Below, one piece after another: positions 29,246 through 35,654 of a stretch of 64,000 nucleotides of DNA. This DNA is from Phaeacidiphilus oryzae TH49 (GTDB lineage: Bacteria; Actinomycetota; Actinomycetes; Streptomycetales; Streptomycetaceae). The stretch is from contig NZ_JQMQ01000005.1 in NCBI RefSeq assembly GCF_000744815.1, positions 752,055 through 816,054 of the forward strand, read 5' to 3'. Under the pieces are notes generated by a model. The model was not told where the DNA came from and ran no database searches. It saw nothing but the letters and a program-made list of their open reading frames with translations. The translations under genes were made by a program, and so were the position numbers. Positions within the stretch are counted from its first letter, which is position 1. Each line of letters begins with the position of its first letter.

Positions 29246-29263
29246 GTGCACGTTTCCCGTGTC

Positions 29264-29422
29264 ACGCCTACGAGGTGAGCTGTCGGGTTCGGAGCCTGTA
29301 CGGCCCCGGCCGCGCGCCCGCGGCTTCACCCCTAGCCGCGACCTTGCGCGGCAGCGATGGTTCCCCCGCTCCCGACCGACTCTTCGATGCTCACGGCGCG
29401 CGCGGTGGTCGGGATTCGGCGT
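29264..29422 (-). ncRNA. c-di-AMP riboswitch (ydaO/yuaA type) upstream of the Rpf gene
   Basis: Read on the minus strand, this 159-nt leader contains the conserved actinobacterial ydaO elements in order: AATCCCGACC, GGGAGCGGGGGAACC, GGGGTGAAGCCGCGG, then CCGAACCCGACAGCTCACC and CTCGTAGGCG. The ends pair through ACGCC (rc of 29418-29422) and GGCGT (rc of 29264-29268), which is P1. The class binds cyclic di-AMP and generally turns wall-hydrolase genes off when the ligand is high. Placement immediately before the Rpf start fits the known Streptomyces rpfA arrangement. Confidence 0.88.
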
Positions 29423-29470
29423 TCCCGCGGCGCAGGCCCACGGCTGCGGGCCCATTCGAACGCTAATCAT

Positions 29471-32422: not shown

Positions 32423-32745
32423 TCACGTCGCCCCTCCCCCGACCACCACCTCCACGGCCCGCCCCTCGGGATCCCGCAGCACATGCCGCCCGGCCTCCAG
32501 CCCGGCCACCGGCCCGGCGCTCGAGAACCCGATCCGCAGCCGCCCGGTGGGCGCGCACCCCACGGCGGGATACAGCTCCAGGACCGCACCGCCCCCAGGG
32601 TCGCGGCGTAGTGCTCGGGCCCGCTGCCGTGCTGCTCGCGGTGGAGGTCGAGGCCGAGCCGGGCGTAGAAGTCCCTGCACTCCGGCAGTCGACTGGTGTA
32701 GATCACCACGAGGGTGAGGTGCGGACTGAGCTGATGTTCGGTCAT
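32423..32745 (-). pseudogene. VOC/glyoxalase-family protein broken by a one-base frameshift
   Basis: The N-terminal part (ATG 32745; MTEHQLSPHLTLVVIYTSRL, then ECRDFYARLGLDLHREQHG and HYAATLG) is in one frame. The C-terminal part (AVLELYPAVGCAPTGRLR, then GFSSAGPVAGLE and LRDPEGRAVEVV) is in the next frame and ends at 32423. Adding one base to the CCCCC run at 32592-32596 joins them into a normal 107-residue VOC protein whose junction reads AATLGGGAVLELYP. VOC proteins include glyoxalase I and fosfomycin or bleomycin resistance proteins. Either the gene is inactive or the assembly lost one base. Confidence 0.75.
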
Positions 32746-32823
32746 GGTCGGTTCCCTTCGGGAGCATTCGCGGGGCGGGGAAAATCGCTCGGCTGTGCGG
32801 CGGGGGTTCCGGTAGCTTGCCAG

Positions 32824-32894
32824 TGCCGCGAAGCGAGGTCCGGGGTTACTCCCTTTCACTGGAAACCATCCCCGGGCACTGGGCACTCGCAGCG
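32824..32894 (+). ncRNA. Putative Y RNA 1 (short, simple-stem form)
   Basis: A 71-nt element that folds with the same outer design as its two neighbours. The 5' strand TGCCGCGA (32824-32831) pairs with TCGCAGCG (32887-32894) with one mismatch; an inner helix CCGGGG (32840-32845) pairs with CCCCGG (32870-32875). The shared cores are GCGAAGCG on the 5' side and GGCACTCGC on the 3' side, in the same places as in the copies at 32925 and 33129. The apical loop has no tRNA-like arms. Assignment rests on the shared cores and on the downstream Ro60/TROVE gene. Confidence 0.55.
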
Positions 32895-32924
32895 TCCCAG
32901 CAGAGGCGACAACTGGATACGGGT

Positions 32925-33061
32925 GATCGGCGAAGCGCAGTGCGGAGTTCCTTCGACTTGAGATCGAGTGGTCGCAGGTTCGAGTCCTGCCCGGCGCCTC
33001 GGCGTCGGTAGCTCAGTGGATAGAGCGCTAACGGCCTTCGCGCGCCTGGCACTCGCCGGTC
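32925..33061 (+). ncRNA. Putative Y RNA 2 with a circularly permuted tRNA-like module (YrlA-like)
   Basis: The ends pair perfectly: GATCGGCGA (32925-32933) with TCGCCGGTC (33053-33061), counting one wobble. The conserved cores GCGAAGCG and GGCACTCGC flank an internal loop as in animal and bacterial Ro-binding Y RNAs. Inside, in order: an anticodon-like hairpin (stem TTCGA/TCGAG, 7-nt loop CTTGAGA, 32952-32968), a perfect T arm (GCAGG-TTCGAGT-CCTGC, 32974-32990), an acceptor-like 8-bp stem CCGGCGCC/GGCGTCGG closed by TC (32991-33008), then TA and a D arm GCTC-AGTGGATA-GAGC (33011-33026). A normal tRNA would have the D arm first and open acceptor ends, so this is not a tRNA gene. tRNA-mimicking Y RNAs next to Ro60 genes are established in bacteria. 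Confidence 0.75.
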
Positions 33062-33128
33062 TCCCGTGTCCAGTCGCCGCCACTGCACCGGTCACCGGTC
33101 GTCTCGCGGTCCGGCGGGACTGCGGCGC

Positions 33129-33230
33129 CGCCGCGAAGCGCAGTGCGGGCCTACTTCTGGTCACCACAGGTTCGACTCCTGGAGCGGGGCTGATCCCCCG
33201 CGAAGGCTCGCACGACAGGTACTCGCGGCG
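33129..33230 (+). ncRNA. Putative Y RNA 3 with T-arm-like domain
   Basis: A 102-nt element. Outer helix CGCCGCGA (33129-33136) with TCGCGGCG (33223-33230), 8 bp; then an internal loop; then a fully paired 10-bp helix GTGCGGGCCT (33143-33152) with AGGCTCGCAC (33204-33213). Inside are a T-arm-like hairpin (CAGG-TTCGACT-CCTG, 33167-33181) and a GCGGGG/CCCCGC hairpin (33184-33201) equivalent to the closed acceptor stem of the neighbouring RNA. No D arm is visible, so it is a reduced version. The 5' core is identical to that of Y RNA 2 over 16 bases (GCGAAGCGCAGTGCGG). Confidence 0.68.
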
Positions 33231-33302
33231 TCCGCGGCGCAGTCCCACGCGGCGCAGTCCCACGCAAGCCCCCCACCCCGACCGCACGGAGGAGAGACCG
33301 CC

Positions 33303-34907
33303 ATGTCCAAGTTCGCCCGCTCCCCGACCACCGCCGCCCCGCGCGGCCCGGTGACCACCACCGGCACCGCGGCCACCTTCGAGGGCGGACCGGCCCACAG
33401 CCGGGACGCCAAGAGCGACCTGTTCCTCCTCGCCGCGGTGAACATGGTCGGTGAGAGCGGCTTCTACGAGTCCGCCGGCGACCGCGACGACCGGTTCCGC
33501 GCGCTCGTCCACACCGTCACCCGGCAGGACCCGGACTGGGTCGCCCGCTTCGTGCCCTACCTGCGCGGCGAGATGAACATGCGGTCGGCCGCCGTCGTGG
33601 TCGCGGCCGAGTCCGCCCTCGCCCGCCGCGGCGGCACCGACCGCGAGGCCACCGTCCCGGTGCGGAGGATGGTCGCCGACGCCCTGCTGCGGGCGGACGA
33701 GCCCGCCGAGTTCCTCGCCTACTGGCGGCAGCGCACCGGGAAGGTCACCCTCCCCGGCGGCGTGCAGCGCGGCCTGGCCGACGCCGTCCAGCGCCTCTAC
33801 ACCGAGAAGGCCGCACTGAAGTACGACGGCGGGGCCTCCGCGTGGCGGATGGCGGACGTCGTCGCGCTGGCCAAGCCGCACCCCCGGGAGCCGTGGCAGG
33901 CGGACCTGTTCGACTACCTCGCCGACCGCAGGTGGCGGCGCGACACCGTGCGGGTCACCGACCGCCTGCCCGTCCTCAGTGCCTACCGCGCGGCCCTGGC
34001 ACTGCCGGAGGCCGAGCGCAGGGCGTACTTCCTGGCCGACCCCGGCCGGCTCGCCGAGGCGGGGATGACCTGGGAGCAGCTGTCCGGCCTCGGACCGATG
34101 GACGCGGACGCGTGGACCGCCGTGATCCCCTCGATGGGGCTGATGGCGCTCACCCGCAACCTCCGCAACCTCGACGAGGCGGGCGTCGGCGACGAGGTCG
34201 CGGCGGGGGTGGGCGCGCGGCTCGCGGACCCGGAGGAGGTGCGGCGCTCGCGGCAGCTCCCGTACCGGTTCCTGTCCGCCTACCGTGCTGCGCCGTCGCT
34301 GCGCTGGGGCCACCCGCTGGAGCGGGCACTGGCCGCGTCGACGGCGAACATCCCGGCACTGCCGGGACGGACGCTGGTGCTCGTCGACACCTCCGGCTCG
34401 ATGGGGCAGCGGGTGTCCGCGCGGTCGGCGGTGCGGCACGTGGACGTCGGCGCGCTCTTCGGGGTGGCGCTGGCGGCCCGCGGCTGCGAGGTGGACCTGG
34501 TCGGATTCGCGACCGACAGCTTCACCCACCCGCTGGACAAGGCTGGTTCGGTGCTGCGGCAGACCGAGGCGTTCTGCGCCCGGATCGGCGAGGTCGGGCA
34601 CGGCACCCGGATCATCGAGGCCCTGCGGTCCGCCTACCGCGGGCAGGACCGGGTGGTGGTGATCTCCGACATGCAGACCTTCGCGCCGGCGGCCTCCGCC
34701 GGGCCGACGGCGTCGACGGTGTCGACGGCGCTCCCGCCGCAGGTGCCGCTGTTCGGCGTGAACACCGCCGGGTGCGCGGCGTCGGCGATCGACACCGCCA
34801 CGCCGAACCGCTACGAGATCGCCGGTTTCAGCGACAAGCTGTTCACCATGGTGGCCCTCCTCACCCGCGGCCGGGACGCCGGCTGGCCGTGGGAGCAGGC
34901 TGACTGA
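33303..34907 (+). CDS. Ro60-like TROVE domain protein (Rsr)
   Basis: A 534-residue Ro60 orthologue. Residues about 35-350 form the TROVE HEAT-repeat ring (AKSDLFLLAAVNMVGESGFYE, RDDRFRALVHTVTRQDPDWVA, LPYRFLSAYRAA) and residues about 355-530 a von Willebrand A domain with a complete MIDAS: LVLVDTSGSMGQ (Asp 362), the Thr-containing loop GFATDSF, and ISDMQTF. Ro60 rings bind the 3' ends of misfolded RNAs in the central cavity and Y RNAs on the outer surface; in Deinococcus and Salmonella the complex tethers the exonuclease PNPase or accompanies the RtcBA repair system. ATG 33303 follows GGAGGAG (33289-33295). Three candidate Y RNAs lie directly upstream on the same strand; no rtcB or nuclease gene is adjacent. 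Confidence 0.93.
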   Translation: MSKFARSPTTAAPRGPVTTTGTAATFEGGPAHSRDAKSDLFLLAAVNMVGESGFYESAGDRDDRFRALVHTVTRQDPDWVARFVPYLRGEMNMRSAAVVVAAESALARRGGTDREATVPVRRMVADALLRADEPAEFLAYWRQRTGKVTLPGGVQRGLADAVQRLYTEKAALKYDGGASAWRMADVVALAKPHPREPWQADLFDYLADRRWRRDTVRVTDRLPVLSAYRAALALPEAERRAYFLADPGRLAEAGMTWEQLSGLGPMDADAWTAVIPSMGLMALTRNLRNLDEAGVGDEVAAGVGARLADPEEVRRSRQLPYRFLSAYRAAPSLRWGHPLERALAASTANIPALPGRTLVLVDTSGSMGQRVSARSAVRHVDVGALFGVALAARGCEVDLVGFATDSFTHPLDKAGSVLRQTEAFCARIGEVGHGTRIIEALRSAYRGQDRVVVISDMQTFAPAASAGPTASTVSTALPPQVPLFGVNTAGCAASAIDTATPNRYEIAGFSDKLFTMVALLTRGRDAGWPWEQAD

Positions 34908-35075
34908 GCGGCAGCCCGGCGGCGGACGAGGCAGGGTTGCCCGCCGCCGGGACGGTGCCGCGGACGCCGGCCTGGTCTCGTCGACGGCCAGCGGGCGACA
35001 CACCGTGCGCAACGCGCCGGGGCGGCCGGAGGCACGGCCCTCCACCGAAGGCGACACGTTTCTTCACTCGGTGGG

Positions 35076-35165
35076 GGGTCACCCCGGGTTGGGTCACTCC
35101 GGGACGGGTCACTCCGGGGCGGGTCACTCCGGGGCGGGTCACTCCCGGGTGGATCACTCCGAGGT
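35076..35165. repeat. Six tandem 15-bp repeats at the 3' end of the chaplin gene
   Basis: Six copies of GGGTCACTCCGGGGC or close variants run from 35076 to 35165 and cover the last codons and stop of the chaplin gene plus about 78 bp beyond. The 246 bp between the TROVE stop (34907) and this gene otherwise hold no gene. They could act as a terminator region or be simple slippage repeats. Confidence 0.88.
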
Positions 35166-35654
35166 GCGTCGGCCACGGCGCAGCAACATGGCACCGCCCG
35201 CCAGCAGTACGGCGCCGAGTCCGCTCATCGCCGCCAGTTGCGCCGGGCCGGCGCCGGTCTCGGCGAGCTGCGGGCCGTCCGGGGCGGCCAGCGGCGGCGG
35301 CGCCTCGTGCCGCACGGTGGGGGTGGCGGCGCGGACCGGCTCGGGCGGCGGGGCCAGGTGGTGGACGGGCGCGCTCCGCGGGGTCGTCGGCACCGGCGCG
35401 GCGGGCGCGGACGAGACGTTGGCGCACTTGTTGCCGAAGGCGGGGTTGAGCGCCCCGACCCCGTTGGCGCTGTTGCCGCAGACGTCGACCGGCACCTCCA
35501 CCGGGGCCTGCACGCTGTTGCCGGACAGCAGCCCTGGACTGCCCGAACTCGAGCCTCCCGCGCTCGAGTCGGCGTACGCGGTCCCCGCCGCGGCGAGCGC
35601 CGCGCTGGAGGCCCCGGCGAGCAGGGCGACGGTGGACAGGCGACTGCGGGTCAT
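35154..35654 (-). CDS. Sortase-anchored chaplin with a single chaplin domain
   Basis: A 166-residue surface protein. Signal peptide MTRSRLSTVALLAGASSAAL...AYA; one chaplin domain (SPGLLSGNSVQAPVEVPVDV, CGNSANGVGALNPAFGNKCAN) with both Cys; a Pro/Ala-rich wall-spanning linker of about 55 residues; and a sortase signal LAETG followed by a hydrophobic helix and the tail RRGRRTSE. LAxTG is the motif used by the streptomycete class E sortase. Classical long chaplins (ChpA-C) carry two chaplin domains, so this is an intermediate form. ATG 35654 follows GAGGAGA. Confidence 0.92.
   Translation of the reverse strand: MTRSRLSTVALLAGASSAALAAAGTAYADSSAGGSSSGSPGLLSGNSVQAPVEVPVDVCGNSANGVGALNPAFGNKCANVSSAPAAPVPTTPRSAPVHHLAPPPEPVRAATPTVRHEAPPPLAAPDGPQLAETGAGPAQLAAMSGLGAVLLAGGAMLLRRGRRTSE

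Follow-up and report, generated by a model that had tools for sequence, protein, structure and literature searches.

Many species reportedly carry several Y RNAs, at least one of them with a tRNA-like domain, as Chen is said to have described in 2014. Mimicry of tRNA is already known from bacterial Y RNAs (PMC8394870), and the Y RNA of Deinococcus is described as tethering Rsr to PNPase and acting as a gate (PMC4726728, PMC8394870). In Salmonella, more than one Y RNA is placed beside rsr, in the operon named rsr-yrlBA-rtcBA (PMC7790460), and yrlA is listed as predicted in some mycobacteria (PMC9569102). The Ro-binding site of vertebrate Y RNAs is reported to contain a single bulged cytidine (PMC4726728, PMC4030889), which one of these sources says persists in bacterial Y RNAs (PMC4030889); a review describes the bacterial RNAs as not homologous with the vertebrate clades (PMC4726728).

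We analyzed an array of three elements in the window, that is, the whole stretch of 64,000 nucleotides from Phaeacidiphilus oryzae TH49. The array is a variant of the known bacterial Y RNAs with tRNA mimicry. The bounds of its elements were taken from two covariance models, R1 for the mimic type and R2 for the plain type, and the features discussed below are as follows.

32813–32818, + strand: -10-like box (TAGCTT), lying 10 nt ahead of the Y1 stem
32823–32895, + strand: Y1, candidate plain Y RNA, a variable hairpin on a Ro-type basal stem (R2 covariance model)
32910–32923, + strand: 5' strand of the extended Y2 helix (clade pairing test)
32925–33061, + strand: Y2, candidate YrlA-like RNA with a complete, circularly permuted tRNA elbow (Rfam YrlA, R1, ARAGORN)
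33063–33076, + strand: 3' strand of the extended Y2 helix (clade pairing test)
33095–33114, + strand: G+C-rich hairpin in the spacer between Y2 and Y3, a possible processing signal (by eye)
33128–33231, + strand: Y3, candidate reduced mimic with a Ro-type stem, a T arm and an acceptor-like stem (R1, R2)
33303–34907, + strand: Ro60/Rsr gene (TROVE and vWA), 534 aa (Pfam, AlphaFold model, PDB matches)

Materials and Methods

The non-redundant sample of 110 TROVE upstream regions consisted of the window, 30 genome-contig loci, and 79 family-search loci; the latter were the best matches plus 60 hand-picked among the matches listed and are not a random sample. Elements were located with a scanner that combined a motif with a stem. 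The scanner was rewritten twice because its earlier versions missed visible elements, and the third version was used for the reported counts.

Because the Rfam YrlA model also scored tandem tRNA genes, we built covariance models of our own. R1 was trained on 27 elements, Y2 of the window included, chosen among the 40 mimic-type elements listed (non-redundant, from 99), and R2 on 23 of 33 plain elements with the window left out; long or odd elements were omitted from both training sets by choice. The first plain-type alignment (A7) was discarded. Its consensus structure lacked the basal stem because MAFFT had shifted the two core types by two columns. In the realignment (A8), the clade rows were trimmed, and the window and locus L005 were dropped; L037 was already absent from A7.

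In the mimicry test, the arms of 119 candidates, 7 of which were not parsed, were un-permuted, a neutral anticodon arm was grafted, and ARAGORN was run. The isotype that ARAGORN returns in this test is meaningless, because it comes from the grafted arm.

Results and Discussion

Structure of the Three Elements

Each element carried the 5' core GCGAAGCG and the 3' core GG(C/T)ACTCGC, joined by a closing helix, and the cores lay where an earlier note on this DNA had placed them. The closing helices that it described were also recovered, with 9 of 9 pairs in Y2, 8 consecutive pairs in Y3, and 8 of 9 pairs with one mismatch in Y1. A conserved Ro-type stem joined the 5' and 3' ends. The tRNA-like domain was complete in Y2, where a T arm, an acceptor stem closed by a loop, and a D arm followed one another in this order; it was partial in Y3, in which no D arm was seen, and absent from Y1. 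The proposed series of a simple stem, a full mimic, and a reduced mimic holds for Y1, Y2, and Y3. The spacer hairpin was better formed in several relatives, as judged by eye from their upstream sequences, and was not called an intrinsic terminator by the terminator scan.

In the 7.8 Mb genome, the best place found with R2 was Y1 (50.5 bits, E 4.7e-8) and the second was Y3 (43.2 bits, E 2.8e-6), the third place reaching 29.4 bits only. This third place seems by eye to be coding sequence. With R1, Y2 ranked first (113.5 bits, Y2 itself being in the training set), and Y3, which is outside that set, ranked second with 44.8 bits; places three to eight all lay on or beside tRNA genes. The Rfam YrlA model (RF02553) gave Y2 41.3 bits over 32967–33029, short of the cut-off of 69, so that Y2 is not assigned to RF02553 as curated. 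A covariance-model search, which the earlier note had suggested, thus recovered all three elements at the top with our own models and left Y2 below the cut-off with Rfam YrlA. Single-sequence folding gave stabilities little above those of shuffles (z -1.15 for Y1, -0.35 for Y2, and -2.15 for Y3). The genome ranking by R1 and R2, the YrlA match, and the kept pairing support the claimed Y RNA identity, and Y1, Y2, and Y3 look like bacterial Y RNAs in the broad sense, candidate genes upstream of Ro60 on the strength of their sequences.

As in YrlA, the array adjoins Ro60, and the T arm, acceptor stem, and D arm occur in the same permuted order; across 14 loci, the YrlA model gave 15 matches, of which 7 aligned over the whole model including the Ro-type stem. 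None of the 15 reached the cut-off of 69 (best relative, 47.7 bits), and an annotation relying on this cut-off would omit such Y RNA genes. Unlike YrlA, the array here has three members, one of them plain and one without a D arm, and Y2 carries an extended outer helix. It shares with the yrlBA pair of Salmonella the presence of more than one Y RNA beside the Ro60 gene, but yrlBA is part of an RNA repair operon; seven window ORFs tested near the array encode a transporter, a chaplin, a TetR regulator, and four products without a Pfam match.

The likeness to animal Y RNAs that had been pointed out is limited. A Ro-type stem with a CGAA-like core is common to both. The vertebrate stem, however, has its single bulged cytidine, whereas the consensus Ro-type helix of the mimic type is predicted to be continuous over 9 pairs without one; the array also differs in carrying a tRNA mimic. 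The Rfam YrlA consensus helix likewise has no bulged cytosine, and since the bulge is absent there too, it may not define the YrlA group.

Covariation in the Paired Strands

In the mimic type (27 elements of the wider family), 31 pairs were formed in 96.2% of the cells, and 170 two-sided cells were counted, the mean of the shuffles being 54.4. On each of five measures, the observed value exceeded all 500 shuffles, and when the structure was slid by 1–3 columns, only 37–48% of the cells were paired. The plain type (23 elements, window excluded) had 16 pairs formed in 90.2% of the cells and 57 two-sided cells versus 14.3 in shuffles, and pairing in its slid controls was far lower than observed. 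The slid controls count for more, because relatedness inflates the shuffle results. In both types, many two-sided changes in relatives keep the pairing, which bears out the covariation that had been suspected from the three copies of the window.

The nearest clade was also considered separately. The outer helix of Y1 gave no significant covariation there (58 of 72 cells paired, 402 of 2000 permutations as high), and covariation of this plain-type helix does appear across the wider set. In nine clade sequences, the outer helix of Y2 comprised about 23 pairs in total. Its inner part was paired in 80 of 81 cells and its extension in 115 of 126, 10 of them two-sided, with 1 of 2000 permutations reaching the observed value on each measure; in L005, the sequence of the extension was quite different and the pairing was kept. 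No such extension was present around Y3 in the clade (57 of 135 cells paired, 656 of 2000 permutations as high).

These results bear on the idea that the locus is a decayed tRNA gene cluster whose tRNA-like arms are functionless relics of tandem tRNA genes. Tandem tRNA junctions share the T-acceptor-D order, and both R1 and the YrlA model match them; one such junction in the window's genome scored 42.5 bits with the latter, slightly above Y2. ARAGORN, in contrast, called zero tRNA genes in the window, Y1 has no tRNA part, and common Ro-type stems, strong covariation, and TROVE linkage are not expected of relics. The covariation largely refutes the relic reading, which we regard as very improbable. 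As the origin of the permuted mimic, a tandem tRNA junction is possible.

In the control genomes, 13 of 14 gave some match to the YrlA model at E ≤ 10, none of them over the cut-off. In a tRNA-tRNA junction, the arms follow the same T-acceptor-D order, which is why tandem tRNA genes match this model; such matches are a warning on false positives of the YrlA model. The tandem tRNA-Ala and tRNA-Asn genes of the window's genome (L130 and L132) are examples that score with it.

Arrays in Related Bacteria

At least one element was found by the scanner in 108 of the 110 regions, compared with 14 of 1100 shuffled sequences and, for the opposite strand, 0 of 110. The corresponding values had been 107 of 110, 6 of 550, and 4 of 110 with version 1, and 106 of 110, 6 of 550, and 0 of 110 with version 2. 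Two regions had no element, 5 had one, 40 had two, 61 had three, and 2 had four, so that at least two elements were present in 103 and the three-member array is the commonest form within this set. At least one full or partial mimic occurred in 105 regions and at least one plain element in 94, the letter classes of the scanner (plain, mimic, partial) being rough motif calls. The arrangement had been put forward as unusual; this view was not upheld, since mixed arrays are common among the related bacteria examined and 63 of the 110 regions had three or more elements.

Among 394 family genomes, a TROVE gene (query P0001) was detected in 234 and an R2 match at E ≤ 1e-6 in 214. Both were present in 210 genomes, the R2 RNA only in 4, and neither in 156, and 24 of the 234 TROVE genomes had no R2 match at this threshold; a Fisher test on this co-occurrence ignores relatedness. 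The nine clade relatives (L002–L007, L035, L037, and L039) have Rsr proteins that are 72–77% identical. In line with the comparison that the earlier note had called for, elements of this kind were present upstream of TROVE in all of these relatives, with three elements in six of the nine (L002, L003, L004, L006, L007, and L037). Two elements were present in L005 and in L039 (Y1 deleted in the latter), and one in L035. As judged by eye, the third element was a full mimic with T and D arms in L002, L003, L006, L007, and L035, was altered in L004 and L037, and had no D arm in the window and L039. The motif calls of the scanner also gave T and D arms in the first five of these.

At L143, a Y RNA element (2219–2290) lies beside an apparent TROVE remnant of 53 aa at 40%, and the family-genome search gave no TROVE match in that genome. 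Y RNA copies also occur beside second TROVE genes, in L141, L142, and L144.

Transcription Signals

In 67 of 108 loci, the motif TANNNT preceded the first element at exactly -11; for the second element, this was so in 5 of 103 loci, and for the third in 0 of 63. An earlier count with scanner version 2 had given 30 of 106 loci, with a shuffle maximum of 5. The window's own TAGCTT box is at -10. The presence of a box at the first element and its absence from the later ones agree with a single start for the entire array, and in L035 and L039, the box now adjoins the remaining element of the contracted array. Neither a complete sigma-70 consensus promoter nor an intrinsic terminator was found at 32500–33400.

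The same signals can be read in another way, namely that the elements are not free RNAs but a structured leader at the 5' end of the Ro60 mRNA, through which Rsr, by binding it, would repress its own synthesis. The array and the gene are on the same strand, with 71 nt between the end of Y3 and the Ro60 start codon, the -10-like box precedes the first element only, and the scan gives no intrinsic terminator between array and gene. A leader is harder to reconcile with the plain element at L140 (2329–2400), which lies about 2.2 Mb from the TROVE match of the same genome. By eye, this copy is preceded by its own TANNNT box and followed by a T run, and no TROVE match was found in a 6 kb stretch that contains it. 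The element left beside the TROVE remnant at L143 also speaks against a leader, as do the Y RNAs described in the literature, which function as separate RNAs. The stand-alone copy at L140, together with the copies at L141, L142, and L144, argues for free-standing RNA genes. We therefore consider the leader quite unlikely to be the explanation of the array; a leader role and a free-RNA role could coexist.

tRNA Mimicry and the Class of the Mimics

Once un-permuted, 106 of the 112 parsed elements were called tRNA by ARAGORN, Y2 of the window included, compared with 0 of 112 shuffled controls and 5 of 119 elements in native order. A leucine-type D arm was found in an element of 20 of the 110 loci (L017, L019, L024, L046, L051, L054, L058, L060, and 12 more), most of these elements having a long variable arm as seen by eye. 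A class I mimic stands in the same array in 18 of the 20 loci. In close relatives, the slot taken by the leucine-type element holds a class I mimic. When the class label was mapped onto a tree of 28 Rsr proteins, 8 of them leucine-type, it required 5 changes (gains or losses) versus a shuffled mean of 7.2, and at least 3 changes were forced by well supported branches. Because this is an Rsr tree and not a species tree, the pattern of class labels may also reflect exchange between strains.

Such mimics could serve as decoys for tRNA-acting enzymes, such as anticodon nucleases or tRNA modifiers, instead of docking sites for an RNA-degrading enzyme. The decoy idea, which has been raised for YrlA (PMC7790460), would agree with mimics that read as tRNA once un-permuted and with a last slot that switches between class I and leucine-like forms. 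The mimics nevertheless have no tRNA anticodon loop, so that an anticodon nuclease would have to recognize the elbow alone, and in Deinococcus the PNPase tether is experimentally supported in the literature. On this evidence, we judge a decoy function to be rather unlikely.

The Ro60 Protein and the RNA Core

The gene claimed to lie 3' of the elements was borne out as Ro60/TROVE. Its product contains a TROVE domain (49 bits versus a Pfam cut-off of 23), and an AlphaFold model made with 28 aligned sequences as input had a mean pLDDT of 88.5. Every one of the top 13 PDB matches of the model was Ro60, Rsr, or TROVE, including 2nvo (Deinococcus Rsr) and 1yvp (Ro-RNA complex). By its TROVE domain over the curated cut-off and its predicted Ro60 fold, the product of 33303–34907 is Ro60/Rsr. 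No second TROVE-family or self match to this protein was found in the genome at E ≤ 0.001.

The loci read outside the window's clade have cores resembling GGTGCG and ATCTCG. When 52 Rsr proteins were placed on a tree, those of the GCGAAGCG core type formed one clade with support of 100/100, and the window was drawn as its first branch, with fork support of 89/86. In a 28-row profile, human H187 fell on the histidine of the motif L[VT]H[AP]xP. All 10 proteins of the window's clade read ALAKP at this place, two residues shorter, so that the H187-equivalent histidine is missing in the clade, window Rsr included. Outside the clade, 44 loci were inspected; 5 gave no motif, and all of the 39 readable ones keep the H. 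Since the core change and the histidine loss amount to a single event, their association is a lead and not a proof. In humans, a CGAA-like Y RNA core occurs together with a Ro60 that retains the histidine, so the core alone does not demand its loss. H187 is reported to be essential for Y RNA contact (PMC4030889).

Proposed Mechanism

The array combines YrlA-type homology, conserved pairing, Ro60 linkage, and, in relatives, a box before the first element only. We consider it probable that the locus consists of three Y RNA genes before their Rsr partner, with transcription, processing, docking, and gating as proposed here. Counted against this explanation are the Rfam score below the cut-off and slightly below that of a tandem tRNA junction, the unremarkable folding, the lack of a consensus promoter and terminator, the missing H187 equivalent, the predicted helix without a bulged cytidine, and the 24 TROVE genomes that lack an R2 match at E ≤ 1e-6.

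RNA polymerase would start just before Y1 and read through the array, and the transcript would then be cut into separate RNAs, the helix of about 23 pairs around Y2 possibly being a double-stranded processing site of the RNase III type. Y1, Y2, and Y3 would all bind the outside of the Rsr ring via their common stem. By analogy with the tether of Deinococcus, the permuted tRNA elbow of Y2 may be a docking surface for a second protein. Y1, which has no docking module, might be a plain gate or a stabilizer in competition for this site on Rsr; Y3 could be an intermediate form. The ratio of Y1, Y2, and Y3 would then set the amount of Rsr that is tethered. With plain, reduced, and full mimics behind one box, the locus is a compact natural experiment on one Ro60 ring with several Y RNAs, in bacteria that have relatives in laboratory use.

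A broader reading, which we offer as tentative and on the whole doubtful when taken in all its parts together, is that the arrays of Streptomycetaceae are exchangeable tRNA-shaped adapters on one Rsr ring combined with a clade-specific recognition pair of RNA core and protein. One adapter would be plain and one would be a class I mimic, and a further slot would have switched several times between the class I and the leucine-like class II form. Every adapter would recruit, or act as a decoy for, a tRNA-binding partner of its own. The RNA core of the clade and the RNA-contact segment of its protein would have changed together into a self-consistent pair. The co-change of the core and the H187 segment, together with the class I/II changes, makes the purpose of the tRNA mimic directly testable.

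A limited literature search found no published description of the regular three-member arrays, of the class II mimics, of the covarying extended Y2 helix, of the co-change of the RNA core and the H187 segment in the window's clade, or of the recurrent switching between class I mimics and leucine-like class II mimics in Streptomyces relatives, and the novelty of each is uncertain.

Other Features of the Window

Three further features were recorded in the window. A chaplin-domain protein (PF03777) is encoded just downstream of the TROVE gene, at 35157–35654 on the - strand, and a tandem repeat of about 17 nt (GGTCACTCCGGG-like) was seen by eye at about 35073–35160, also downstream of this gene. 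A c-di-AMP (ydaO) riboswitch lies at 29250–29423 on the - strand and scored 49.8 bits versus the Rfam cut-off of 38.
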